From contig JACKLX010000008.1 in the NCBI GenBank assembly GCA_024235695.1, forward strand, positions 97,573 to 161,572: a stretch of DNA of 64,000 nt, written 5' to 3'. The translations under genes and the position numbers were made by a program. Each line of letters opens with the position of its first letter. The stretch's first letter is position 1. This document shows positions 14,661 through 35,487 of this stretch, in pieces. This DNA is from Accumulibacter sp. GTDB taxonomy: Bacteria > Pseudomonadota > Gammaproteobacteria > Burkholderiales > Rhodocyclaceae. Below the pieces are notes generated by a model. It saw only the letters and a list, made by a program, of their open reading frames with translations, had not been told where the DNA came from and ran no database searches.

Positions 14661-15473
14661 CTAAGCGTTCGGTGAAGGTGTTGCGCGCCTTGCGGCCAAA
14701 CCGAGCAACGACAGGCTCAGTCCGATCAGGACGAGAGTGCCGGGTTCGGGTACTTCCACTTTGACACTATCCCAGGCATTCCACGCGGCGACCGCCAGGC
14801 CGGTTGTCGGATCGATGGGAAACGGCTGGCTCTGCATCCCCGACTCGTTGAAACGCATCGCAACCACTTTCGTGATGTCGAAGAGCGGATCGCTCCAATA
14901 GAAGGAAAACGGGTTCTGCAGGCCGAGATTCGGGCTGATCCAGAAGGTATCCCACAGATTGGCCGGGCCAAAGCGGAACCATCCCCGGGAACGTCCATTG
15001 ACATCCATCAATTCGAGCGACAGGTCCCAGACACCACGCGGCGGATAGACGGAGAAATGAATCATGCTGCTGCCGCTGCCCAGGTTAACCGGCGTGCTGC
15101 CAAGCGGATCGAAGCGATAGTCCCACCAGGCGATGGCAAGGGCGTCGTTCGACGGCAGATCCCAGGACATCACCAGGGTGTTGTCGATCACCGTCGCCTG
15201 CGGGTCGCTGACGCCATCGAAATCAGGCGTCAGCCGGGCGGCCTCAACGGCCAGCGGGACCCCTTGCGGCAGGTAGAATTGCAGTGCCGCGTCGGTCAGA
15301 TTTGCGCCGGCGGTTGACGGCACGATGTTGCCCGCCGCGATCGCCTGTTGCCAGGACCCGGCGGTGGGGATGTCAACCAGGATGGTCGCGCCTGCCCTTG
15401 CCGAGGAGAGGATCGCCAGGGCGGCGATAAGGATGCCAAGGCATCTCTTGATGGGCGTCTGCTTGTCAGTCAT
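14661..15473 (-). CDS. PEP-CTERM sorting domain protein
   Basis: Product is 270 residues. It has a signal peptide (about residues 1-28, ending SSARAGA) and a textbook C-terminal sorting signal: the VPEPGT motif, a hydrophobic helix and a basic tail (ARRATPSPNA). Exosortase would cleave at PEP and release or anchor the protein at the cell surface or in the matrix. The mature region has no domain I recognise; it is rich in Trp, Asp and Ser (VMSWDLPSNDALAIAWWDY), like other matrix proteins of floc-forming bacteria. The gene has a long leader and a -24/-12 promoter with an upstream dyad (listed separately). No exosortase gene is in this window. Confidence 0.9.
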   Translation of the reverse strand: MTDKQTPIKRCLGILIAALAILSSARAGATILVDIPTAGSWQQAIAAGNIVPSTAGANLTDAALQFYLPQGVPLAVEAARLTPDFDGVSDPQATVIDNTLVMSWDLPSNDALAIAWWDYRFDPLGSTPVNLGSGSSMIHFSVYPPRGVWDLSLELMDVNGRSRGWFRFGPANLWDTFWISPNLGLQNPFSFYWSDPLFDITKVVAMRFNESGMQSQPFPIDPTTGLAVAAWNAWDSVKVEVPEPGTLVLIGLSLSLLGLAARRATPSPNA

Positions 15474-15693
15474 TGGTCTGCCTCCTGTATGTTGCTCACG
15501 AAAGCATCGAGCGGTTTGACCGGGCCGCAGGCAAGAGACCAGCTTGTCTGCTTGTGTCTGCTTGCGAGCCGCGGCGCCCTGCCGGGAACGCCACCTGGTC
15601 GTTCTGTGGGCGCTTGCCGGTCACGCTCCATTCCGGTTGGCTGGCTGGCCCCCTGCGGCCACCACGCCAGCGTGTAAACCGTACTTAAATCAA

Positions 15694-15708
15694 GCAACAA
15701 TCGCGCCA
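15694..15708 (-). promoter_or_regulatory. Sigma-54 (RpoN) -24/-12 promoter of the PEP-CTERM gene
   Basis: On the minus strand the sequence reads TGGCGCG-ATTG-TTGC, followed by T. The consensus is TGGCACG-N4-TTGC followed by A or T. Spacing between the GG and GC elements is exact. Transcription would begin near 15682, leaving a leader of about 210 bases before the PEP-CTERM start at 15473. Confidence 0.75.
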
Positions 15709-15783
15709 AGAAAAGAAACCAATCGAAAAATCATGCGGTTATCGCAACCGGCTAGAACCTGGCGATGTTTCCGCGCCAACAAC

Positions 15784-15800
15784 TGTAAGAAATTCCGACA
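15784..15800 (-). promoter_or_regulatory. Candidate enhancer-binding-protein site (UAS)
   Basis: Read towards the gene it is TGTCGG-AATTTC-TTACA, an imperfect dyad of TGTNNG half sites with a 5-base centre. It lies 75 bases upstream of the -24 element, the usual distance for a sigma-54 activator. A 17-base element matching at 13 positions, in the same orientation, precedes the sigma-54 promoter of the giant PEP-CTERM gene at 26587-26603. Confidence 0.6.
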
Positions 15801-20840: not shown

Positions 20841-21146
20841 TCAGCAGCCGCTCAAGCCGTGCCAGCCGCAAAGCTCGCGCTTGACCCAGGCGAGCAGGAT
20901 CCACAGCCCGAACATCAGGAAGAACGCCACCAAGGGAACGAGCCGGTCGACCACGCGCCGCGGTGCGAGCTGGCGCGTCAGGCGGATCGCCGGGCGGGTG
21001 ACGATCTGGAAGAGCCGGTAGATCGGATTGCCGGTGCGACCGGCTCCCGCCAGCAGCGCCACCGCGCCTTGCCCGAGCAGGCAGAGCAGCGCGACCTCGA
21101 CCAGTGCGCGCACGATCGAGACGATCAACAGGTCGGGATGGCTCAT
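20841..21146 (-). CDS. Small integral membrane protein (YggT-like appearance)
   Basis: Product is 101 residues from the ATG at 21146. Two hydrophobic segments (about residues 6-32 and 70-88) are joined by a basic linker containing GNPIYRLFQIVTRPAIRLTRQLAPRRVVD. The NPIYR and TRPAIR elements resemble the YggT family of inner-membrane proteins linked to cell-division and ion functions. The open frame runs further upstream, but that part looks non-coding. It lies convergent to the small secreted protein gene. Moderate confidence in the gene, low confidence in the family. Confidence 0.65.
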   Translation of the reverse strand: MSHPDLLIVSIVRALVEVALLCLLGQGAVALLAGAGRTGNPIYRLFQIVTRPAIRLTRQLAPRRVVDRLVPLVAFFLMFGLWILLAWVKRELCGWHGLSGC

Positions 21147-21757
21147 GCTATCTGCCGCTGGACTCTTGCCTTGAAAGTCGCGTCTTCGACTGACGAATCG
21201 CCGCTCGCCCGTGCTGCTGCGACGGGTCGGCGAAAGCGGCGGGGAATTGCGCGCGCGCTCTCTGTCCGGCCAAGGATTCCGGCGTCCAAGCCGGAACGAA
21301 CACGGCAGGTGAGGGCAACGGTGATCACGTCCATGATCGGCTGTTTCGGCAGTTGATGACCGTACGGCCTGAATCCGCGGGGTCTGCGTGGCGTCTGCAG
21401 ATGGTCCTCGTGGTCCTCGAGTAGTGGCGACATTATGCCCGGGCATCGCTGTCTTGTTTCTTCGGCAGCGACGACAAGGTCCGCGATGCTGGGCACAAGT
21501 AAGCGCTCGCTTCGGTGATTGCGGCGAGGCCGTTCGATTGCGGTCGCGACCGGCGAAGGGCGCATCGACCGCGACCCGGCCGGCGCCGCTTCCCGATCTG
21601 CTGGTCTATACTGGTCTGGTCGTGTGTCGTGGCCCGCGTGGAGCGCGCGGTGCCGCCGCTGCCCGGGAGGAGCTTGCGCGGCCTGCCGTTGATGCAACAG
21701 CGCAAAGCCGCGACGCGAAGTGCTGGCCGCAGGCGACCGACGAAGAGGAGAACGACG
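21147..21757. other. 611-base intergenic region, nothing firmly recognised
   Basis: Upstream of the second PEP-CTERM gene. I looked for the sigma-54 plus TGTCGG dyad arrangement seen before the other two PEP-CTERM genes and did not find it. A TATACT at about 21607 could be a sigma-70 -10 element. A GAAGAGGAG ribosome-binding site lies immediately before the gene. No small gene stands out. Confidence 0.4.
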
Positions 21758-22786
21758 ATGGGGTGCCTTGAAAATGACCTGGCAGCGCCACTGCGGATCG
21801 CTCGGACTGTCCGGCGTTGCCTGTTTGGCCTCGCCTTGCTGGTTTTCGCCGGCGCCGCACAGGCGGCGGCATTGACCGGGATCCAGGACTACCGCTATCT
21901 GGTCAGTGGTCTTCCCTCGCCGGAGAGAGAGTTCCCGGCGCTGGTCCATGAGTTCGAGGGACTGGCGTTTACCGCCGACGGCAGCCTTTGGGCCTCGATC
22001 GCTGCCGACCCCCTGGGTACCCGGCGGGAATTCTGGCGGCTGGACGTCAAGGACAATGTCGTCCATCAGGCGATCGCCGATAGCCGTTTCGAGCCGACCG
22101 CGCAGTTTGCCAATCCGGTCGCCCTGGCCGGCGCGGGAGCGCAGCTGATCGTCGGCGAGAACTTCCACGCCTTCAGATCGCGAGGCTTTCCGCTGAACGA
22201 CATTCTCTGGGCATTCACCCCGGGGGTCAGTACGCCGGCTGTGCCCGACTGGACCTTCTCGCTCGCCGTGACCGACTGCGACGAAGTGGAAGGCGCCGCC
22301 GCGGCCAGGGGAAAGCTCTATGTGAGCTGTCAGGGCGACGGCACTATTCTCGAGCTTGACCCGCAAAGCGGCCAGGTCGGCAGGAAATTCGCGCTGAATG
22401 CCCAGTTGCTGGGCCTGGAAGCAATCGATGACCGCCGCCTGCTGGTCGGCGATTACAGCAATCATCGCTTGCTGGTTTTCGACCTCGGCCTCGAGCAGGT
22501 CAGCGAGTCGATCGATCTGGCGAGCCTCTTTCGCGGGCCGGGCAGCGACTACTTCCGGCTTACCGGCGAGGAGTACCTGGTTCAGGTCGTGCCGTCGGAA
22601 GGTTTCAGGAGAACGCCCGATCCCGACGGCCTCGCCTATCGCGATGGGACGATCTACATGGCATTTGACGGCGACCTGCGAATCTTCGCCATCTCCCTGA
22701 ACGTCTCCGAGCCCGGAACGGTGGCGCTGCTCGGGCTGGCATTGCTCGGCCTGGCCTGGCTCGGTCGGCGTCGACCGAGCGGCTAG
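21758..22786 (+). CDS. PEP-CTERM sorting domain protein with beta-propeller-like body
   Basis: Product is 342 residues from the ATG at 21758. The N-terminal signal is VRRCLFGLALLVFAGAAQA. The mature region shows repeated blade-like segments (GLAFTADGSLWASI, GKLYVSCQGDGTILELD, LEAIDDRRLLVGDYSNHRLL, DGLAYRDGTIYMAFDG), resembling SMP-30/NHL or phytase-type propellers. The C-terminus is a PEP-CTERM signal of variant type: VSEPGT replaces the usual VPEPGT, followed by a hydrophobic helix and RRRPSG. It should be exported and handled by exosortase. The upstream region lacks the dyad plus -24/-12 arrangement of the other PEP-CTERM genes. Confidence 0.85.
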   Translation: MGCLENDLAAPLRIARTVRRCLFGLALLVFAGAAQAAALTGIQDYRYLVSGLPSPEREFPALVHEFEGLAFTADGSLWASIAADPLGTRREFWRLDVKDNVVHQAIADSRFEPTAQFANPVALAGAGAQLIVGENFHAFRSRGFPLNDILWAFTPGVSTPAVPDWTFSLAVTDCDEVEGAAAARGKLYVSCQGDGTILELDPQSGQVGRKFALNAQLLGLEAIDDRRLLVGDYSNHRLLVFDLGLEQVSESIDLASLFRGPGSDYFRLTGEEYLVQVVPSEGFRRTPDPDGLAYRDGTIYMAFDGDLRIFAISLNVSEPGTVALLGLALLGLAWLGRRRPSG

Positions 22787-23209
22787 CGGCAGCCCGGCCC
22801 GGTTGCGCCGCCACGCCGTCGCGCAGCCCGGGCCTGCACGAAGCGTCCGGCTGGCCGTGCCGCGACCGCGCGTCGGCCGCGCGGCCCGCGGGGATTTCGC
22901 CTGGCCGCCGGAGTCGCCCCTTCGACCGTTTCTCCGACACGCCGGCATGTCCCCGGCATTCCATGCGATATGCATGGCCCTTGTGCGGCCAGCCAGTTCG
23001 CGGCATTGCGCCGCAAGGGTTGGCGATGCGCCGCGTTTTCATGCCGATAGCCTTGCCGTGGGCAGCGATCTGCGGCATGATTTGCCTCCACGCCGACGAC
23101 GGCGGCTCACTCGATCAATCTGCCGAACAGCCGATGACCTTCCCGCGCCATGGTTCTTCACTACTGCCGAGCGCCGCCTTGCGGCCAGCGGTAGCGAGCT
23201 AGGGCGCGC
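22787..23209. other. Intergenic region, nothing recognised
   Basis: 423 GC-rich bases between the PEP-CTERM gene and the DUF1538 gene, both rightward. A 79-codon open frame at 22963-23202 has no ribosome-binding site and no family resemblance. No terminator with a U-tract was seen. Confidence 0.4.
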
Positions 23210-24712: not shown

Positions 24713-25056
24713 AATTTTCTGCCGTTGTGCTGATCGTCCCGGAAGAGGACGAGGATCGCGCCGTCGAGTTGCTCAAGCAGGCCGGCGCCACCGGCATCAC
24801 CATCCTCAAGGGCAAGGGGCTGCGGCACAATGAGCGCAAGACCTTTCTCGGTCTCGGCCTGGAGCGCAAGGAATCACTGCTGCTGTGCGTCACCGAGCAG
24901 CAACTGGCGATGCGCATTCTGCGCGCGGTCAAGTTGCAGATGAAGCTCGATCTGCCGGGAGGAGGTCTGGCGTTTTCGCTGGCGCTGGGCAGCGTCGTCG
25001 GCATCGGTGTCGAGCAGATGAAGCTGTTCCGGCGCGAAGTCGAGGGCGGCATGTGA
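24709..25056 (+). CDS. PII-like signalling protein
   Basis: Product is 115 residues, the size of a PII/GlnK subunit, and starts MKFSAVVLIVPEEDEDRAVELLKQAGATGITILKGKG in PII fashion. The uridylylated T-loop tyrosine and the standard TGxxGDGKIF B-loop are absent; the corresponding stretch is LPGGGLAFSLALG. It is therefore a divergent PII-like protein and not GlnB or GlnK. It presumably trimerises, binds a nucleotide, and regulates the DUF1538 membrane protein encoded immediately upstream (ATGA overlap, so translation is coupled). Confidence 0.8.
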   Translation: MKFSAVVLIVPEEDEDRAVELLKQAGATGITILKGKGLRHNERKTFLGLGLERKESLLLCVTEQQLAMRILRAVKLQMKLDLPGGGLAFSLALGSVVGIGVEQMKLFRREVEGGM

Positions 25057-25121
25057 GCCAGGGCGCCGACTGCAGGCCCGGTCGATTACTATGCACGATC
25101 ATTGAGTGAAGGAGTTCTAGC

Positions 25122-25517
25122 ATGCTGGTTGCCGGAATCATGAAGAGAAACGTCATCACCATCAGTCCGCTGGCGACCGTCCGAGAGGCTCTGATGATGA
25201 TGAAGGAGCGCGGCGTCAAGTCGCTGGTGGTGGAAAAGCGCCATTCCGGCGATGCGCACGGGCTGATCGCCTATCGCGACGTCGCCAGGGCGGTGATCGC
25301 CGACGACGGCGACATCGACCTGCTCAACGTGTATGACATTGCCCAGAAGCCGGCGCTGCAGGTCTCGCAGCACCTCGAGGTCCGCTATCTGGCGCGGCTG
25401 ATGATCCAGTACGCGGTGAAGAGCGTGCTGGTGATCGACAACAACGATCTGCAGGGCTTCGTTTCGGATACCGACGTCGTCGCCAGTCTCATCGATCGGG
25501 CAGCGCAGGAAAAATAG
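25122..25517 (+). CDS. CBS-domain pair protein
   Basis: Product is 131 residues made of two CBS motifs (MKRNVITISPLATVREALMMM and VRYLARLMIQYAVKSVLVIDNNDLQGFVSDTDVV). CBS pairs bind adenosine nucleotides and report energy state. A GAAGGAG ribosome-binding site precedes the ATG. The gene follows the PII-like gene by 65 bases in the same direction and probably completes a DUF1538/PII-like/CBS regulatory module. Confidence 0.9.
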   Translation: MLVAGIMKRNVITISPLATVREALMMMKERGVKSLVVEKRHSGDAHGLIAYRDVARAVIADDGDIDLLNVYDIAQKPALQVSQHLEVRYLARLMIQYAVKSVLVIDNNDLQGFVSDTDVVASLIDRAAQEK

Positions 25518-25529
25518 GGCCGACCGGCT

Positions 25530-25967
25530 ATGGAAAAGAACGTCCGCCGCTATTCTGCCTTCATCCCGCGCTGGTGCCAGGCCTTCGGCGACCACGCGCC
25601 GGATCCCGGCGGCGAGGGTCGGGCAGTCGAGTGGCTGGTCGGAGCCGATGCCGTCGGTATTGTCGTCCTGCCCGAGATTCGACGCATGTTGACGCACGAG
25701 CTGCTCGGTGCCAGGAATCCCGAACTCGAGTTCGGCGCGCGGTCGGTGCGGCTCAACCAGCGAACCTTCGACCAGATGAACATCCTCGGGCACCCGGGCT
25801 ATGCCGCCTTGCGCGAATTGCTGTTGGGCGCTGACCAGTTGCACCTGTTCCTGACCTACCATCTGATCCATCCGCCAGGCACGCGGATCATCACTGTCGC
25901 CCGCAAGCCACCGCTGCCGCTGCTGTACAAGGAGATGGCACCGCTGCCGGTGATTGTCAGCGAGTGA
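25530..25967 (+). CDS. Conserved-looking hypothetical protein
   Basis: Product is 145 residues, not recognised. It has a soluble, mixed composition with well-formed hydrophobic segments (VEWLVGADAVGIVVLPEIRRMLTHELLG and LRELLLGADQLHLFLTYHLIHPPGTRIITVARK), unlike the low-complexity shadows in other frames. It begins 12 bases after the CBS gene stop, so it is probably the last gene of that operon. No strong ribosome-binding site was seen before the ATG. A longer open frame on the opposite strand is judged a shadow. Confidence 0.55.
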   Translation: MEKNVRRYSAFIPRWCQAFGDHAPDPGGEGRAVEWLVGADAVGIVVLPEIRRMLTHELLGARNPELEFGARSVRLNQRTFDQMNILGHPGYAALRELLLGADQLHLFLTYHLIHPPGTRIITVARKPPLPLLYKEMAPLPVIVSE

Positions 25968-26586: not shown

Positions 26587-26603
26587 TGTCGGTAAATTTT
26601 ACA
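26587..26603 (+). promoter_or_regulatory. Candidate enhancer-binding-protein site (UAS)
   Basis: TGTCGG-TAAATT-TTACA lies 87 bases upstream of the -24 element at 26691. It matches the element at 15784-15800 at 13 of 17 positions, in the same orientation relative to its gene. Both are imperfect dyads of TGTNNG half sites. Confidence 0.6.
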
Positions 26604-26690
26604 GTGGCCGCGTGGCAGGGCCGGCGCAGCTTGTCGCTCGTCCGCTCGACGCATTGATTTATCAGGGATGGCCTGCCTTGCTCGGCGACA

Positions 26691-26706
26691 TGGCTTGATT
26701 CTTGCT
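26691..26706 (+). promoter_or_regulatory. Sigma-54 -24/-12 promoter of the giant PEP-CTERM gene
   Basis: TGGCTTG-ATTC-TTGCT matches the RpoN consensus at TGGC, G and TTGCT with exact spacing. Predicted transcription start is near 26717, giving a leader of about 137 bases before the ATG at 26854. Confidence 0.7.
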
Positions 26707-26853
26707 ATAGCGCTTGTACCGTAGCCGCGGGTCTCTCCTGAGGCGCTTGTCCGCGTTCTACCGTTTGCTGTCGATAGATGGTCAAACCGGGTTCCGTCGC
26801 CGCCGCGCGACGGGTCAGTTGAAACGATGTTTCGGTTGGCGGAGCGTAGACAA

Positions 26854-29800
26854 ATGAAAAACAACAACGCGCGGAGCGTTTCGGTGCGGCCGGTCGGCCG
26901 ACTCCTGGCCTTGCCCATGGCTTTGGCAATGATCGGCGTGGCGCCAGGGGCGCAGGCTGCCAACTTCGCGTGCGACTGGATCGCCAACGCCGGCTCGTGG
27001 CTTGCCAGCGCCAATTGGAGCACGTGCAACAGCGCCTACCCCAACAACGGCGGTGGCAACACCTTCGACGCCACGATCAACACCGGAGGGTACACGGTCG
27101 ACCTGACCTCTCCGGTCAGCATCGGCACGCTGACCATCAGCCAGAACACCCTGAACAATTCGTCGACGCTGACCACCACCGGCGGCGTCGTGATTAGCTC
27201 GTACGGCGGCACGCTGCTCGGCGGCACCTACGTCGGTAGCGGCGGGACGGCGGTTTCATTCGCCTCTGGCGCCTATGGCACGCTGGACAACGTCACCCTG
27301 CGCGGCAACCTGGACCTCTCGGCCACCTCGGCAACCGCGTACTTCGTCAATGGCCTGGCGGTCAGGGACGTCAGCGGCAGCAACCCGGGTGTGATCAACG
27401 TCACGGGTAATGGCGCGTGGTTGCAATCACAAGGCACGCAGACGCTGAACGGTGCGACGGTGCACCTTGGTGGTGCCGTAGGTGGCAGCTCCATCTATTC
27501 GGGCGTCGGAACGCTGACCCTGGGCGCCAACCTGCAGGTTCTCGCCGATGGTGCCGGCTCGTACGCGTATGTTTATGGTGGCCCGATCGTCAACGAGGGC
27601 AGCATGGCCTTCAGCAACGGCTTCGGCAACGCCATCTTCCCGAGCGAGTTCACCAACAAGGGCACGATCACCGTCGCCCCGGCAGCGGCGCTGTCCATCA
27701 CCCCAACGACGCTGACCAACAGCGCGACCGGCAGCATCACCGGTGGCGACGGTTCGTCCATCCAGTTTGGTGGGGCGGCAGCGAGCAACGCCGGTACGAT
27801 CACCATGAACGGCGCCGGTGGCACCACCGTTCTGCAGATGGGCTACGCCGGCAACCCGGGCGACCAGCCCTACTACCAATGGACCAACACCGGCACGATC
27901 AACGTCACCGACACCGAGTTGCGTCTCGGCGGCTACTTCATGCAGTCCGACATCGGCACGATCAACCGGACCGGCGGCACGGTCAAGCTCAACGGCTTCC
28001 TCGAAAACAGCGGCCAGACGCTGGACATCAGCGCCAGCTCGCCGCTCGACGGCCTGCGCATGGCCGGTGGCACGATCCACGGCGGCACCGTTCTCGGCAA
28101 CGCCGCCGCCAACCTGTTCGCCACCGACTCCAGTAGCGGCACGCTCGACGGCGTCACGGTGCACGGCAATCTCGACGTCACCGGTTACGGCGCCACGGCG
28201 TTCTTCGTCAATGGCCTGAGCGTCAAGGACAGCAGCGGCAGCAATCCGGGCGTGATCAACGTCACGGGTCCCGCCGCCTACCTGCAATCGAATGGCACGC
28301 AGACGCTCGACAACGCGACGGTGCACCTCGGCGGCGCCTCGAGTGCCGGCTTCATCTATTCGGGCGCCGGAACGCTGACCCTGGGCGCCAACCTGCAGGT
28401 TCTCGCCGACGGTGCCGGCTCGTACGGCCAGCTCTATGGCGGCCCGATCGTCAATGAAGGGAGCATCGCCTTCAGCAACGGGCACTACAACAACACCATC
28501 AACCCGAGCGAGTTCACCAACAAGGGTACGATCACCGTCGACCCGGCGACGACCCTGTACATCACGCCAACGACGCTGACCAACAGCGCAACCGGCAGCA
28601 TCACCGGTGGCGACGGTTCGTCCATCCAGTTTGGTGGGGCGGCGGCGAGCAACGCCGGCACGATCACCATGAACGGCGCCGGTGGCACCACCGTTCTGCA
28701 GATGGGCTACGCCGGCAACCCGGGCGACCAGCCCTACTACCAATGGACCAACACCGGCACGATCAACGTCACCGACACCGAGTTGCGTCTCGGCGGCTAC
28801 TTCATGCAGTCCGACATCGGCACGATCAACCGGACCGGCGGCACGGTCAAGCTCAACGGCTTCCTCGAAAACAGCGGCCAGACGCTGGACATCAGCGCCA
28901 GCTCGCCGCTCGACGGCCTGCGCATGGCCGGTGGCACGATCCACGGCGGCACCGTTCTCGGCAACGCCGCCGCCAACCTGTTCGCCACCGACTACAGTAG
29001 CGGCACGCTCGACGGCGCCACGGTGCACGGCAATCTCGACGTCACCGGTTACGGCGCCGCCGCGTTCTTCGTCAATGGCCTGAGCGTCAAGGACAGCAGC
29101 GGCAGCAATCCGGGCGTGATCAACGTCACGGGTCCCGCCGCCTACCTGCAATCGAATGGCACGCAGACGCTCGACAACGCGACGGTGCACCTCGGCGGCG
29201 CCTCGAGTGCCGGCTTCATCTATTCGGGCGCCGGAACGCTGACCCTGGGCGCCAACCTGCAGGTTCTCGCCGACGGTGCCGGCTCGTACGGCCAGCTCTA
29301 TGGCGGCCCGATCGTCAATGAAGGGAGCATCGCCTTCAGCAACGGGCACTACAACAACACCATCAACCCGAGCGAGTTCACCAACAAGGGTACGATCACC
29401 GTCGACCCGGCGACGACCCTGTACATCACGCCAACGACGCTGACCAACAGCGCAACCGGCAGCATCACCGGTGGCGACGGTTCGTCCATCCAGTTTGGTG
29501 GGGCGGCGGCGAGCAACGCCGGCACGATCACCATGAACGGCGCCGGTGGCACCACCGTTCTGCAGATGGGCTACGCCGGCAACCCGGGCGACCAGCCCTA
29601 CTACCAATGGACCAACACCGGCACGATCAACGTCACCGACACCGAGTTGCGTCTCGGCGGCTACTTCATGCAGTCCGACATCGGCACGATCAACCGGACC
29701 GGCGGCACGGTCAAGCTCAACGGCTTCCTCGAAAACAGCGGCCAGACGCTGGACATCAGCGCCAGCTCGCCGCTCGACGGCCTGCGCATGGCCGGTGGCA

Positions 29801-32800
29801 CGATCCACGGCGGCACCGTTCTCGGCAACGCCGCCGCCAACCTGTTCGCCACCGACTACAGTAGCGGCACGCTCGACGGCGTCACGGTGCACGGCGACCT
29901 CGATCTCACCGCTTACGGCGCCACTGCGTATTTCGTAAACGGCCTGAGCGTCAAGGACAGCAGCGGCAGCAACCCGGGTGTGATCAACGTCACGGGGCTC
30001 GGCGCCTACCTGTATTCGCTGGGCACGCAGACGCTGGATCAGGCGACGGTGCACCTCGGTGGTGCCTCGAGCACGGCTTACCTTTATTCCGGCAGCGGCA
30101 CGCTGACACTCGGGCCCGACCTGCAGGTCCTCGCCGACGGCGTTGGCTCGTACGGGTATATCTACGGTGGCCCGATCGTCAACAACGGTAGCATGAGCTT
30201 CAGCAATGGTAGCGCCAGCAACTACATCGCCCCGAGCGAGTTCACCAACAACGGCACGATAGCGTCTTCGAACGGTTCCGTCGTCCTGATTCAACCGACG
30301 ACCTTTACCAACCTGGTCGCCGGCACGCTGACCGGGGGCAGTTATCAGGCTTATGCCGGTTCCGAGATCAGCTTGCAGCAATCGTCGATCAGCCCGGTGG
30401 CGACCCTGGCCGCTGACGTCGTGCTCAGCGGTGCGGGTTCGCGGCTGCGTACCTATGACACGCTTACTGGCACCTACACCGCCCTCGAAGACAGCCTGAC
30501 GACGATCACCGCGGCGGGTGCACTGCACGTGCTGGCCAACCGCGACTATGCGACCAGCAAGGCGATCAGCAACCAGGGCACGCTCGAACTCGGCGGCGGC
30601 AGCTTCACCGCCCCCACCCTGACCAACGCCGGCACCCTGCGCGGCTTCGGTTCGGTCGTGCCGGCGATCGCCAACAGCGGTCTGGTGCGCGCCAGCGGCG
30701 GCACGCTGATCGCGCAAGCCGGCGTGAACGGCAGCGGCAACATCGAGGTCGCCAGTGGCGCGACGCTCGACCTGAGCAGCGCCGCCGGCGCCAGCAGCGG
30801 GCAGCGGCTGACCATGGACGGCGCGCTCAATCTCGGCGGCCAGAACCTCGTCGTCAGCAAGGACTACAGCAACGCCAACTTCGGCACCGGCAACAGCTTC
30901 AACCGCCGCAACAACGTCAGCGGCGCCGGCCAACTGATCGGCCAGAACGCCGCCCAGACCGTCGTCGGCCAGGTCGTCAGCGCCGGCGCCAACAGCTTCA
31001 CCGTCGAGCTTGGCAACGTCCGCGGCGGCACCAGCGCCAGCAAGACCTTCCAGGTCCAGAACAGTGGCAGCGGCGCCGACATCCGCGGCGCCGTGCAGAG
31101 CGCCGGCGCCGGCAACGTCACCGACGGCCGGCTGTCGCTCACCACCGGCAACTTCGGCCCGCTCGCCGTCGGCGCCAGCAGCGGCGACTACACCATCAGC
31201 TTCAACGCCAGCAGCGGCGGCGCACTCACCGGCCAGAAGGCCGGCGTCGTCAGCAACTTCGACAACGTCGCCACCCAGACCATCACCATCAACGGCTTCG
31301 CCTCGGTGCTGGCGCAAGGCAGCGCCACGCCCAGTACCGACCCCGTCAACCTCGGCAACTTCCGGGTCGGCGCCACGGCACCGGCCCAGAACTTCGACGT
31401 CAGCAACCTCACCAGCGGCAGCGGTGCCGAGCGTCTCGGCATCGGCTCGGCCGGCGCCAGCGGCAACTTCGCGGCGGTCAACAACCTCGGCAGCAACCTC
31501 ATCGGCCCCGGCGCGCAGCAGACCGCCGCCGTCACCGCGACCGTCAACAACGGCGTCGCCGGCATCAACAACGGCGCCGTCACCCTCCAGTACACCACCA
31601 ACGGCCAGCTGATCGATCCCGCGTTCGTCACCCAGAACGCCAATGCCCAGACCATCAACCTGCAGGCCACCGGCTACAACGCCGCCGTCGGCAGCGCCAC
31701 GCCGGACCCGGTCGTACTCGCCAACCAGCGCACCGGCGGCAGCCAGAGCCAGGTCCTCACCGTCAGCAACAGCGCACCGGCCGGCAGCTTCACCGAAAAA
31801 CTCAACGCCGGCTTCGGCAGCACCACCGGCAACGCCACCCACAATAGCGGCACCGTCAGCCTGCTCGCCGCCGGCGACCCCGGCAGCACCGCCATGGCCG
31901 TCGGCGTAGACACCAGCACCGCCGGCGCCCGCAGCGGCACCGTCACCCTCAACTACCAGACCGACGGCAACGGCACCAGCGGCCTCGCCGCCGCCAGCGC
32001 CGGCTCGCAAGTGATCAACGTCTCCGGCAACGTCTACCAGCTCGCCAGCGGCCAGCTCAACAGCTCGCCGCTCAACTTCGGCACCGTCCAGGTCGGCCAG
32101 TCGGTCAGTCGGGTCCTCAGCATCAGCAACACCGCCAGCGGCGCCACCGGCTTCGTCGAAGACCTCAACGCCGCCTTTGGCGCCAGTTCCGGTATTGGCA
32201 GCAGCCTGATCAGCGGCAGCGGCAGCATCAGCGGCCTGGTGGCCGGCGCCACCAACGCCAGCGGCATGACCGTCACCGTCGACACCGGTGCCGCCGCCAC
32301 GGTCAACGGCGCCATCGCCGTCAACTTCGCCAGCGCCGGCGCCGTCAATGGCGTCAGCAACGGACTCGGCACCTTCGCCCTGGGCTCCGTCGACTACGGC
32401 GTGCAGGGGATGATCGAGACGCAGGTCAACATCATCAACACCGCCAGCCCGGTGATCAACAACAGCCCGATCGCCCTCGGCAACGTCCGCATCGGCGACG
32501 CCTCGCCGACCGCCCTGGTCAGCGTCAGCAACCAGGCCACCAGCGCCCCGCAAGCCGCGCTCAACGCGACGATCAGCGGTAACGGGCCGATCACCGCCAG
32601 CGGCGCCTTCAACCTGCTCGATCCGGGCGCCACCAACCACAGCGACCTGCAGGTGGCGATGAACACCGCCAGCGCCGGCGCGATCAACGGCACCGCCACC
32701 ATCGCCTTCGTCTCCGACGCCAACAACGTCGGCGGCTGCGCGCCCAACTGCCAGCTCGACCTGCCCAGCCAGGACGTCACCGTCAGCGGCGGTGTCTACC

Positions 32801-35487
32801 AGATCGCCCAGGCCAACCTGCCGGCCAGCGTCGACGTCGGCGCCTTCCGGCTCGGCAGCGCCGCCAGCCAGGCGATCAACATCGCCAACAGCAGCCTCGC
32901 CCCGGCCGGTTTCCAGGAAGGCCTCGACGCCAGCGTCGGCGGCAGCAGCGGCAAGGCCACCGCCAGCGGCGGACCGATCAGCAACCTCGCGCAGGGCGCC
33001 AGCTCCAGCGCCCTCAGCGTCGGCATCGACAACGCCACCGCCAGCGCCGGCATCAACACCGGCAGCGTCACCATCCAGCTCGCCAGCAACGGCAGCACCA
33101 CCTCCGGGCTGGCGACCCTCGCCCTGCCGGACGCCACCATCAATGTCAGCGGCACCGGCTACAACGCCGCCGTCGGCAGCGCCACGCCGGACCCGGTCGT
33201 ACTCGCCAACCAGCGCACCGGCGGCAGCCAGAGCCAGGTCCTCACCGTCAGCAACAGCGCACCGGCCGGCAGCTTCACCGAAAAACTCAACGCCGGCTTC
33301 GGCAGCACCACCGGCAACGCCACCCACAACGGCGGCACCGTCAGCCTGCTCGCCGCCGGCGACCCCGGCAGCACCGCCATGGCCGTCGGCGTAGACACCA
33401 GCACCGCCGGCGCCCGCAGCGGCACCGTCACCCTCAACTACCAGACCGACGGCAACGGCACCAGCGGCCTCGCCGCCGCCAGCGCCGGCTCGCAAGTGAT
33501 CAACGTCTCCGGCAACGTCTACCAGCTCGCCAGCGGCCAGCTCAACAGCTCGCCGCTCAACTTCGGCACCGTCCAGGTCGGCCAGTCGGTCAGTCGGGTC
33601 CTCAGCATCAGCAACACCGCCAGCGGCGCCACCGGCTTCGTCGAAGACCTCAACGCCGCCTTTGGCGCCAGTTCCGGTATTGGCAGCAGCCTGATCAGCG
33701 GCAGCGGCAGCATCAGCGGCCTGGTGGCCGGCGCCACCAACGCCAGCGGCATGACCGTCACCGTCGACACCGGTGCCGCCGCCACGGTCAACGGCGCCAT
33801 CGCCGTCAACTTCGCCAGCGCCGGCGCCGTCAATGGCGTCAGCAACGGACTCGGCACCTTCGCCCTGGGCTCCGTCGACTACGGCGTGCAGGGGATGATC
33901 GAGACGCAGGTCAACATCATCAACACCGCCAGCCCGGTGATCAACAACAGCCCGATCGCCCTCGGCAACGTCCGCATCGGCGACGCCTCGCCGACCGCCC
34001 TGGTCAGCGTCAGCAACCAGGCCACCAGCGCCCCGCAAGCCGCGCTCAACGCGACGATCAGCGGCAACGGGCCGATCACCGCCAGCGGCGCCTTCAACCT
34101 GCTCGATCCGGGCGCCACCAACCACAGCGACCTGCAGGTGGCGATGAACACCGCCAGCGCCGGCGCGATCAACGGCACCGCCACCATCGCCTTCGTCTCC
34201 GACGCCAACAACGTCGGCGGCTGCGCGCCCAACTGCCAGCTCGACCTGCCCAGCCAGGACGTCACCGTCAGCGGCGCCGTCTATCGCCTCGCCAACCCGC
34301 TGCTCAACACCACCGCGCTCAGCCTCGCCGCCCGCGTCGGCGACGCCGCGCCGAGTGCCGCGATCAGCGTCAGCAACAGCTCGCCCGATAGCTATACCGA
34401 AGGCCTCAAGGTCAGCACCGGCAGCGCCCCGGCGGGCTTCAGCAACAGCGGCAGCATCGCCAACCTGGTGGCCGGCGGCACCGACGCCAGCAGCGTCAAG
34501 GTCGCGCTCGACACCGCCACCGCCGGCATCTTCAACGGCACCCAGACGCTCGACTTCGTGTCGACCGGAGCGGGAACCACCGGCGCCGCCGATATCGGCG
34601 TCGGCAACGGCAACGTCGCGGTCAGCGGCAAGGTGTATACGCCGGCGGTGGCGACGCTCAATACGACCAACGTCAACTTCGGCATCGTGCACGTCGGCGA
34701 TACCGTCAGCCAGGCCATCTCGGTGAGCAACACGGCGCCGGTCAGCGCGTTGAACGACGTCCTGCGCGGCGAGTTCAGCAGCGCCAGCGCCTCGTTCTCC
34801 GGCGGCGGCACGCTCGGCGCCGGGATCGACGCCGGTGCCACCGACAACAGCCGCCTGAGCGTCGGCATGGCCACCACGACTGCCGGCAACCTCAGTGGCA
34901 GCGCGAGCTTCAGCATGCGCAGCCACGACGTCGACCTCAGCGACCAGGCGTTGGCCGACCTGACGGTGGGACTGAGCGGTACGGTCAACAACTACGCCAG
35001 CTCGATCTTTACCTTCGGCAGCGGCGCCGGTCACTTCAGCGGCAGCGGCAACAGCTTCGAGCTCGACTTCGGCACGCAGCTGGTCGGTTCCGGCGCGCTG
35101 ACCAGCACGCTGTTTGCCGGCAACGGCGCCATTGGTCCGGCCGACCTGCTCGACGGCGACTTCAGCTTCCTCGACACCATCGACTTCGTGCAGGCCGGTT
35201 TCGGCCCGTTCTTCAACCTCGGTGCCGGTGATCTGAGCAGCGCGCTGTTGCTCGCCTTCAATACCAGCAACGTCGGCGACTACATCGACACCATCCTGCT
35301 GAGCGGTTTCGGTCACAACGCCAGCGGCTACCGTGATGCCGTCGCCGACGTCACGCTCACCGTGCGGGGCCGCGTGATCCAGGGTGGCGGCGACGTTCCC
35401 GAGCCGGGAACGCTGTGGCTGGCGACCCTCGCGCTGCTGGCGATCGGCCGCCGCGCCATCCGGCGCACGCTGGGCAGAGCGGGCTGA
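26854..35487 (+). CDS. Giant repetitive PEP-CTERM surface or matrix protein
   Basis: Product is about 2,877 residues. The ATG at 26854 is preferred over one at 26827 because GGAG lies 9 bases before it and a signal peptide follows directly (about residues 1-35, ending APGAQA). Residues of about 135-1150 are four repeats of 288 residues, rich in Gly, Thr, Asn and Ser, that look like a beta-helix. After a linker, about eleven repeats of roughly 110-130 residues follow (FGTVQVGQSVSRVLSISN type), resembling choice-of-anchor-D/HYDIN-like immunoglobulin-fold domains. A unique domain and the sorting signal VPEPGT, hydrophobic helix and basic tail end the protein. It should be exported, cut by exosortase and placed in the matrix, as an adhesin or scaffold. 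DNA repeats inside are listed separately. The third base is strongly biased to C and G. Confidence 0.9.
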   Translation: MKNNNARSVSVRPVGRLLALPMALAMIGVAPGAQAANFACDWIANAGSWLASANWSTCNSAYPNNGGGNTFDATINTGGYTVDLTSPVSIGTLTISQNTLNNSSTLTTTGGVVISSYGGTLLGGTYVGSGGTAVSFASGAYGTLDNVTLRGNLDLSATSATAYFVNGLAVRDVSGSNPGVINVTGNGAWLQSQGTQTLNGATVHLGGAVGGSSIYSGVGTLTLGANLQVLADGAGSYAYVYGGPIVNEGSMAFSNGFGNAIFPSEFTNKGTITVAPAAALSITPTTLTNSATGSITGGDGSSIQFGGAAASNAGTITMNGAGGTTVLQMGYAGNPGDQPYYQWTNTGTINVTDTELRLGGYFMQSDIGTINRTGGTVKLNGFLENSGQTLDISASSPLDGLRMAGGTIHGGTVLGNAAANLFATDSSSGTLDGVTVHGNLDVTGYGATAFFVNGLSVKDSSGSNPGVINVTGPAAYLQSNGTQTLDNATVHLGGASSAGFIYSGAGTLTLGANLQVLADGAGSYGQLYGGPIVNEGSIAFSNGHYNNTINPSEFTNKGTITVDPATTLYITPTTLTNSATGSITGGDGSSIQFGGAAASNAGTITMNGAGGTTVLQMGYAGNPGDQPYYQWTNTGTINVTDTELRLGGYFMQSDIGTINRTGGTVKLNGFLENSGQTLDISASSPLDGLRMAGGTIHGGTVLGNAAANLFATDYSSGTLDGATVHGNLDVTGYGAAAFFVNGLSVKDSSGSNPGVINVTGPAAYLQSNGTQTLDNATVHLGGASSAGFIYSGAGTLTLGANLQVLADGAGSYGQLYGGPIVNEGSIAFSNGHYNNTINPSEFTNKGTITVDPATTLYITPTTLTNSATGSITGGDGSSIQFGGAAASNAGTITMNGAGGTTVLQMGYAGNPGDQPYYQWTNTGTINVTDTELRLGGYFMQSDIGTINRTGGTVKLNGFLENSGQTLDISASSPLDGLRMAGGTIHGGTVLGNAAANLFATDYSSGTLDGVTVHGDLDLTAYGATAYFVNGLSVKDSSGSNPGVINVTGLGAYLYSLGTQTLDQATVHLGGASSTAYLYSGSGTLTLGPDLQVLADGVGSYGYIYGGPIVNNGSMSFSNGSASNYIAPSEFTNNGTIASSNGSVVLIQPTTFTNLVAGTLTGGSYQAYAGSEISLQQSSISPVATLAADVVLSGAGSRLRTYDTLTGTYTALEDSLTTITAAGALHVLANRDYATSKAISNQGTLELGGGSFTAPTLTNAGTLRGFGSVVPAIANSGLVRASGGTLIAQAGVNGSGNIEVASGATLDLSSAAGASSGQRLTMDGALNLGGQNLVVSKDYSNANFGTGNSFNRRNNVSGAGQLIGQNAAQTVVGQVVSAGANSFTVELGNVRGGTSASKTFQVQNSGSGADIRGAVQSAGAGNVTDGRLSLTTGNFGPLAVGASSGDYTISFNASSGGALTGQKAGVVSNFDNVATQTITINGFASVLAQGSATPSTDPVNLGNFRVGATAPAQNFDVSNLTSGSGAERLGIGSAGASGNFAAVNNLGSNLIGPGAQQTAAVTATVNNGVAGINNGAVTLQYTTNGQLIDPAFVTQNANAQTINLQATGYNAAVGSATPDPVVLANQRTGGSQSQVLTVSNSAPAGSFTEKLNAGFGSTTGNATHNSGTVSLLAAGDPGSTAMAVGVDTSTAGARSGTVTLNYQTDGNGTSGLAAASAGSQVINVSGNVYQLASGQLNSSPLNFGTVQVGQSVSRVLSISNTASGATGFVEDLNAAFGASSGIGSSLISGSGSISGLVAGATNASGMTVTVDTGAAATVNGAIAVNFASAGAVNGVSNGLGTFALGSVDYGVQGMIETQVNIINTASPVINNSPIALGNVRIGDASPTALVSVSNQATSAPQAALNATISGNGPITASGAFNLLDPGATNHSDLQVAMNTASAGAINGTATIAFVSDANNVGGCAPNCQLDLPSQDVTVSGGVYQIAQANLPASVDVGAFRLGSAASQAINIANSSLAPAGFQEGLDASVGGSSGKATASGGPISNLAQGASSSALSVGIDNATASAGINTGSVTIQLASNGSTTSGLATLALPDATINVSGTGYNAAVGSATPDPVVLANQRTGGSQSQVLTVSNSAPAGSFTEKLNAGFGSTTGNATHNGGTVSLLAAGDPGSTAMAVGVDTSTAGARSGTVTLNYQTDGNGTSGLAAASAGSQVINVSGNVYQLASGQLNSSPLNFGTVQVGQSVSRVLSISNTASGATGFVEDLNAAFGASSGIGSSLISGSGSISGLVAGATNASGMTVTVDTGAAATVNGAIAVNFASAGAVNGVSNGLGTFALGSVDYGVQGMIETQVNIINTASPVINNSPIALGNVRIGDASPTALVSVSNQATSAPQAALNATISGNGPITASGAFNLLDPGATNHSDLQVAMNTASAGAINGTATIAFVSDANNVGGCAPNCQLDLPSQDVTVSGAVYRLANPLLNTTALSLAARVGDAAPSAAISVSNSSPDSYTEGLKVSTGSAPAGFSNSGSIANLVAGGTDASSVKVALDTATAGIFNGTQTLDFVSTGAGTTGAADIGVGNGNVAVSGKVYTPAVATLNTTNVNFGIVHVGDTVSQAISVSNTAPVSALNDVLRGEFSSASASFSGGGTLGAGIDAGATDNSRLSVGMATTTAGNLSGSASFSMRSHDVDLSDQALADLTVGLSGTVNNYASSIFTFGSGAGHFSGSGNSFELDFGTQLVGSGALTSTLFAGNGAIGPADLLDGDFSFLDTIDFVQAGFGPFFNLGAGDLSSALLLAFNTSNVGDYIDTILLSGFGHNASGYRDAVADVTLTVRGRVIQGGGDVPEPGTLWLATLALLAIGRRAIRRTLGRAG
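27256..30320 (+). repeat. Four tandem 864-bp repeats inside the giant PEP-CTERM gene
   Basis: The period is exactly 864 bases (288 codons). Approximate units are 27256-28119, 28120-28983, 28984-29847 and 29848 to about 30320 (partial). Units two and three are nearly identical at the DNA level, differing by a few bases near their start (for example GACTCC against GACTAC). The first half of unit one and most of unit four are diverged. The in-frame period preserves the protein reading frame. Confidence 0.9.
31668..32791 (+). repeat. 1,124-bp direct repeat, copy A
   Basis: Copy A matches 33153-34276 with an offset of exactly 1,485 bases (495 codons). I counted three substitutions: two near 31850 and one near 32580. 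It encodes three anchor-D-like domains. Confidence 0.9.
33153..34276 (+). repeat. 1,124-bp direct repeat, copy B
   Basis: Second copy of the segment at 31668-32791. The 361 bases between the copies encode one diverged domain of the same type, so the duplicated block is four domains long with three nearly identical. Confidence 0.9.

Follow-up and report, generated by a model that had tools for sequence, protein, structure and literature searches.

Sigma-54-type promoters of PEP-CTERM genes in Accumulibacter combine a candidate PrsR site, an IHF-consensus site and phased spacing

Ahead of 99 of 167 proteobacterial PEP-CTERM genes, Haft et al. (2006) described a motif 1 of 17 nt with TTTACA at its 3' end, a spacer (mean 62.8 nt, SD 10.6, range 32-92 nt) and a sigma-54 motif 2; they proposed PrsK/PrsR as the regulators, and the PrsK/PrsR/PrsT assignment is theirs (PMC1569441). 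For pepA of Aquincola tertiaricarbonis, a PEP-CTERM gene, a mapped start, -24/-12 motifs and rpoN dependence have been reported, and the authors point to a predicted enhancer upstream (PMC9850573). In D. vulgaris, the predicted PEP-CTERM controller DVUA0057 enriched five predicted PEP-CTERM targets in DAP-chip (PMC3333781), and its motif was inferred later (PMC4641369). In RpoN-dependent systems, IHF commonly binds between enhancer and promoter, the usual distance between these two being 100-140 bp (PMC7962754). Finally, the helical repeats fitted to lac loops in vivo are 11.60, 11.08 and 10.95 bp per turn (PMC1762422, Table 1).

The DNA analysed here, 64,000 nt of an Accumulibacter sp. contig (the window), carries two PEP-CTERM genes with such a promoter, and their parts are collected in Table 1. 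Like the promoters of Haft et al., the two sites lie upstream of PEP-CTERM genes in a genome that encodes PrsK, PrsR and PrsT, and their spacers of 87 nt (giant gene) and 75 nt (second gene) fall within 32-92 nt and are followed by a sigma-54 -24(GG)/-12(GC) element; the comparison with motifs 1 and 2 was made on their description in the text (PMC1569441). The locus is another case of this published kind of promoter. At its 3' end, motif 1 reads TTTTACA at the giant gene (6/6 positions of TTTACA) and TCTTACA at the second gene (5/6). A sequence-only reading of the window had placed the 17-mer and, 87 nt further on, the sigma-54 element ahead of the giant gene, and had placed the same pair, 75 nt apart, ahead of the minus-strand gene. 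These coordinates were confirmed, and 13 of the 17 positions are identical between the two 17-mers. The word "dyad", which that reading had used for the 17-mer, holds only loosely, the half-sites being TGTCGR and, on the opposite strand, TGTAAR. Between the two elements of each promoter lies an IHF-like site that the reading had not mentioned.

Table 1. Promoter parts and genes at the two PEP-CTERM loci of the window
Feature	Sequence	Position	Strand	Remark
Motif 1 of giant gene, candidate PrsR binding site	TGTCGGTAAATTTTACA	26587..26603	+	one of 29 genome-wide sites
IHF-like site of giant gene		26647..26659	-	8/9 consensus positions of WATCAANNNNTTR, read on - strand
Sigma-54 -24/-12 element of giant gene	TGGCTTGATTCTTGCT	26691..26706	+	pattern match
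Giant PEP-CTERM gene		26857..35487	+	choice-of-anchor D repeats, VPEP tail
Motif 1 of second PEP-CTERM gene, candidate PrsR binding site	TGTCGGAATTTCTTACA	15784..15800	-	
IHF-like site of second gene	AATCATGCGGTTA	15729..15741	+	8/9; sequence as on + strand
Sigma-54 -24/-12 element of second PEP-CTERM gene	TGGCGCGATTGTTGCT	15693..15708	-	
Second PEP-CTERM gene		14661..15473	-	270 aa

Both proteins pass the PEP-CTERM profile PF07589 (30.2 bits for the giant protein and 24.9 bits for the second, cut-off 20.7), and the choice-of-anchor D repeats of the giant protein gave a profile match of 362.6 bits. TIGR02595 at E<=0.01 detected the second gene and missed the giant one. The ORF of the giant gene opens at 26827 (first ATG); judged by eye, the alternative ATG at 26857 is the likelier start, with GGAG shortly before it and a signal-peptide-like stretch after it. 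Elsewhere in the window, one region (24763-25965) is 80.7% identical in nucleotides over 1210 nt to a Candidatus Accumulibacter conexus contig (L249), a hint of kinship with that group rather than with Zoogloea.

The frequency of both elements was compared with chance expectation. TGTCGG-N6-TTACA has two exact matches in the window, both at PEP-CTERM genes, and the two exact copies of TGGC-N2-G-N4-TTGCT stand at these same genes. With up to two mismatches, the 17-mer was found 7 times in the window against 7.5 expected, which is close to chance, so that the signal is confined to exact or near-exact copies. The sigma-54 element with up to one mismatch was found 18 times in the window against 5.7 expected and is unspecific alone. 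In the whole genome (3.83 Mb searched, 84% complete), TGTCGG-N6-TTACA had 18 exact matches, and 59 at up to one mismatch against 19 for the reversed control; 11 of the one-mismatch sites carry A in place of G at position 6. Refined to TGTCGR-N5-YTTACA, the pattern gave 29 genome sites against 1 for the reversed control, a difference that rules out a chance origin of the 17-mer. The variable position of the TTTACA end was T in 189 and C in 43 of 232 sites, the pattern having admitted only these two bases.

From the two copies in the window, the sequence-only reading had argued for one regulon and had proposed a genome-wide check for enrichment before PEP-CTERM genes. In the genome, 19 of the 25 TIGR02595 places have a site upstream when paired by coordinates, 17 of them below pattern sites and 2 below one-mismatch sites. 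The claim of one regulon is thereby supported. The six places lacking a site are C15:12397, C5:29391, C12:95888, C9:8857, C4:44005 and C8:120275. The last of these (window 22703-22774, + strand; 23.2 bits) is antisense to a longer ORF of the window (21143-22975, - strand) and is probably not a gene but a false PEP-CTERM match. Ahead of the other five, no hidden site was detected, the best score being at most 6.9 compared with at least 11.1 for members.

Twelve of the 29 pattern sites have no TIGR02595 match downstream. Six of these are the site of the giant gene; C15:99192, where a contig end cuts short a homologue of that gene; a further copy of motif 1, which stands 214 bp upstream of C15:99192; C11:28401, whose gene has a PEP-like PIPSS tail; C19:25085, ahead of an HPr-rel-A operon; and C20:4253, described below. 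The other six stand ahead of large or small genes. The truncated homologue (L080 6193-6898) has its own site pair with a spacer of 87. The C19:25085 site (L085 686-2548) is of the PrsR type, has a spacer of 85 and precedes a small operon, a non-PEP-CTERM target, that encodes a PqqD-like protein (TIGR04353, 33.0 bits, cut-off 35) and HprK-related kinase A (TIGR04352, 360.1 bits, cut-off 200). At C6:10801 (L071 1098-5699), a site pair with a spacer of 84 precedes a protein of at least 1534 aa with a LEPR-XLL domain match close to the start; its FxDxF PEP-CTERM match is partial and below the cut-off. The site C20:4253 (TGTCGACCTGGTTTACA) fits the pattern, but its core contains GC and no strict sigma-54 element follows it at spacers 30-122; it was taken as a probable chance match. 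A second motif 1 copy (at least 10/12, within 300 nt) accompanied 21 of 136 sites against 7.2 expected and is somewhat over-represented; a regular second copy, as in classical NtrC enhancers, was rejected, since the large majority are single sites. No dyad in the opposite orientation to the promoter was found in 13 genus genomes, searched over one spacing range.

The regulators predicted for such promoters are encoded in the genome. On contig C20, prsT, prsR, prsK and epsB2 are adjacent, all above their NCBIfam cut-offs (PrsT, TIGR02917, 908.4 bits; PrsK, TIGR02916, 845.2 bits; epsB2, 516.5 bits). PrsR, at 740.6-740.9 bits, is the sole protein of the genome above the TIGR02915 cut-off of 502.6, the next reaching 371.4, and rpoN occurs in a single copy (469.2 bits, cut-off 277.35). 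With rpoN in the genome and elements of the TGGC-N8-TTGCT type at both window genes, the earlier assignment to the sigma-54 promoter type is supported. Among 185 genomes of the class, all but one of the 29 that have the strict motif pair also encode PrsR (28/29), compared with 23 of the 156 genomes lacking the pair (Fisher p=4e-18, a value that takes no account of how the genomes are related); the count refers to the strict pair in one searched spacing range, and 23 of the 51 PrsR genomes lack that pair in this range. Together, the prs cluster and the 28/29 co-occurrence support the 17-mer as a candidate PrsR site, as the sequence-only reading had suggested; the proposal was right but not new, having been published already (Haft et al. 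2006; PMC9850573; PMC3333781).

The lengths of the spacers between motif 1 and the sigma-54 element are not spread evenly. The 29 spacers of the genome are 41; 51, 52, 52 and 52; 62-65 (12 sites); 75, 75 and 76; 84-87 (7 sites); and 97 and 99, with a best period of 11.4 bp (R 0.90) that none of 20000 jittered sets equalled. This ladder was also seen in at least 168 pairs from 12 congener genomes (period 11.08, bootstrap 10.94-11.22), and it was repeated in 56 pairs elsewhere in the class (spacers 61-91) and in at least 122 pairs from named genomes (spacers 49-79), whose listed titles include Massilia, Thiobacillus, Zoogloea, Nitrosospira, Marinobacter, Alteromonas, Novosphingobium and Geomonas. 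In each of the congener, class and named sets, none of 5000 jittered sets reached the observed periodicity. Pooling the 375 pairs listed gave a best period of 11.28 (bootstrap 11.16-11.40) and a rung slope of 11.21 (standard error 0.08), with rung means of 41.0 (2 sites), 51.6, 63.1, 74.0, 85.5 and 96.4 and single sites at 106 and 119. The stretches between rungs are nearly empty in all sets, with a few off-rung spacers such as 81, 82, 90 and 94 among the congeners and, in the named set, 59, 77 and 78. Period estimates vary across the sets from 11.08 to 11.58. Since a single rung accounts for 206 of the 375 sites, the pooled set also gives a fairly high periodicity at 10.5 bp (R 0.72). The reversed-pattern control for the pair gave 0 matches in every genome searched. 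In the named set, an ORF with a PEP C-terminus, recognised by a text pattern rather than an HMM, lies below 70 of the 107 sites with enough downstream DNA, as compared with 2 of 164 control stretches.

These sets were composed as follows. In the genome itself, 31 sites were examined (28 of the 29 pattern sites, two one-mismatch sites and that of the giant gene) and 29 were kept, 24 with a strict sigma-54 element and 5 by a scored element. The two left out were C20:4253 and C15:98978; the best element of the latter (spacer 54, score 11.7) equals that of the accepted C1:205328, and the site was dropped because the gene has a second, nearer one, C15:99192. For C16:4769, the spacer of 52 given by the strict pattern was used, though an element at 139 scored higher. 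Each search among relatives left the gap free over 31 values, and the class and named searches covered three rungs each. For the congeners, 132 of the 145 matches in the range concerned were used, and four from one genome of another family were left out; the 168 pairs include one double site (sigma-54 elements at 62 and 81) and some near-identical copies. The named set consists of the first 120 stretches among the matches listed, a non-random choice, with 122 of 123 sites in range and titles for 80 of the 120.

Homologous promoters were also compared. The congener locus L151 (genome G009) is 90.5% identical to the giant-gene locus over 190 nt downstream of the promoter, and its spacer is 98 compared with 87 in the window. 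In the alignment, a single gap, 11 nt long, falls after motif 1 and before the IHF-like site, and the distance from this site to the promoter is 31 in both. Among 227 records there are 45 homologous pairs. The difference is 0-2 nt in 35 of them; in the remaining 10 it is 11, 11, 11, 12, 23, 23, 24, 25, 32 and 33 nt. Several of these 10 are short matches, and of four alignments inspected, that of the window pair alone is convincing over its full length.

The IHF consensus is WATCAANNNNTTR. When the spacers were aligned by rung, a conserved AT element matching this consensus emerged, and the spacers become AT-richer toward the promoter. In the genus data, which comprise 80 of the 168 congener spacers, selected by rung, along with those of the genome itself, at least 8/9 consensus positions were matched in 59 of 109 spacers against 10.3 after block shuffling, with 14 perfect matches against 0.7; the remaining 50 match at most 7/9. 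The true consensus was found in 124 of 231 spacers, the best of 1000 permuted consensuses reaching 62, and its 38 perfect matches compare with at most 11. In one orientation, the matches follow motif 1 by about 20, 31 or 42 nt and precede the -24 element by 8-9, 19 or 30 nt; in the other, the corresponding distances are 33, 44 or 55 nt and 6, 17 or 28 nt, and the matches are less sharply phased (R about 0.55-0.6 versus 0.75-0.8). The two orientations are offset by about 2 nt, both in fixed registers, and 35 of 148 matches at 8 or more positions fall off the rungs. As these registers were chosen on the genus data, the named set is the only fair test. Among the matches listed in that set, 66 of 123 spacers have a match of at least 8/9, and 56 of 123 have one in the registers fixed beforehand against 3.2 expected, with 21 perfect matches against 0.2. 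Both window promoters carry their 8/9 site in register. That of the giant gene is 43 nt 3' of motif 1 and 31 nt ahead of the -24 element; that of the second gene, in "-" orientation relative to its promoter, follows motif 1 by 42 nt and precedes -24 by 20 nt.

We consider it highly probable that the window sites are sigma-54 promoters controlled by PrsK/PrsR, bent by IHF and helically phased, with binding of PrsR and IHF predicted from their sites. Phosphorylated PrsR would bind the imperfect dyad TGTCGR-N5-YTTACA, and IHF would bend the AT-rich stretch between dyad and promoter. The bend may fold PrsR back onto RNA polymerase-sigma54 at -24/-12, where ATP-driven, RpoN-dependent opening would lead to transcription of the surface protein gene, with a start expected at about 26717 for the giant gene. 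In loops below about 100 bp, bending and twisting are costly, so that a strong bend and a fixed face are to be expected. A loop as short as the 41-99 nt of this genome would hold dyad, bend and promoter on fixed helix faces, and fixed faces would in turn account for nearly all spacers lying on whole-turn steps of about 11.2 bp, a value near the helical repeat reported for negatively supercoiled DNA in vivo. The helical repeat of relaxed DNA is 10.5 bp. The rung step of about 11.2 agrees with the repeats of lac loops in vivo (PMC1762422) rather than with that value; it may correspond to the local helical repeat, but the geometry of a bent loop could shift the step.

Other explanations of these observations have to be weighed. 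It is hardly credible that the ladder is an artefact of duplicated promoters or of selection by the search pattern. Related pairs do occur (45 among the 227 records), orthologous promoters are common to the congeners and a strict pattern loses variant sites; but the spacers of the genome share little sequence (median identity 31%, highest 50%), the gap was free over its 31 values in each search, and the ladder recurs elsewhere in the class and also in named genomes that belong to other proteobacterial classes. Moreover, the ten homologous pairs at least 4 nt apart, several of them short matches, differ by 11-12, 23-25 or 32-33 nt. That another NtrC-type activator reads the dyad instead of PrsR is also improbable, if less so. 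The genome has eight further TIGR02915 matches above 280 bits, all below the cut-off, and in Desulfovibrio one predicted motif is common to two regulators (PMC4641369). Against this stand the motif pair's tracking of PrsR across the 185 genomes, the gap between PrsR and the next protein on the TIGR02915 scale, and the DAP-chip enrichment of predicted PEP-CTERM targets by DVUA0057 (PMC3333781).

Somewhat less remote, though still unlikely, is that the AT element is not an IHF site but an intrinsic bend or the binding site of a different nucleoid protein such as HU or Fis, the phasing arising from the short loop alone. The 50 of 109 spacers at or below 7/9 and the rise in AT content toward the promoter would suit such an element, but it would leave unexplained why the true consensus outperforms all 1000 permuted ones and why two orientations, offset by about 2 nt, keep to fixed registers; IHF between enhancer and sigma-54 promoter is, besides, a common arrangement (PMC7962754). 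We therefore retain IHF-bent, helically phased PrsR promoters as the preferred reading.

As far as the literature was searched, the phased three-part anatomy is a new and well-supported property of PEP-CTERM promoters, its function being predicted. Among the papers listed, the search found no report of phasing or IHF at these promoters; as it covered only a minority of subscription journals, the evidence for novelty is weak. At the site itself, a prediction made twenty years ago is borne out in a further genome. With the added anatomy, what was "motif 1, spacer, motif 2" becomes a switch of three parts under geometric constraint, which names IHF as a candidate partner and should sharpen the genome-wide prediction of PrsR targets. 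On balance, we also lean slightly toward regarding PrsR promoters as a natural ruler of DNA twist in vivo across the Proteobacteria, whose rung step would read out the helical repeat and which would evolve by gain or loss of whole turns, as at the giant gene; if so, the rung ladder measured by species could be used to compare supercoiling.

Compared with the described systems, the co-occurrence across 185 genomes applies to a different set of genomes the phylogenetic-profile argument that Haft et al. had made (PMC1569441). Unlike the present analysis, their motif section deals with neither helical phasing nor IHF, and a term search of the main text returned no "IHF", "integration host" or "phas" (PMC1569441). 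The account of the pepA promoter of Aquincola, in section 7 of that paper, is likewise free of phasing and IHF (PMC9850573). DVUA0057 is a response regulator whose predicted targets, like those of PrsR, are PEP-CTERM genes, and Desulfovibrio represents a different lineage (PMC3333781, PMC4641369). The PrsR-type spacers, mostly 52-97 nt, are shorter than the usual 100-140 bp of IHF-assisted sigma-54 promoters (PMC7962754). Lastly, the lac loop values were obtained from engineered spacings (PMC1762422), whereas the ladder of the PrsR promoters is natural and supplies extensive data on short DNA loops and on the helical repeat in vivo.
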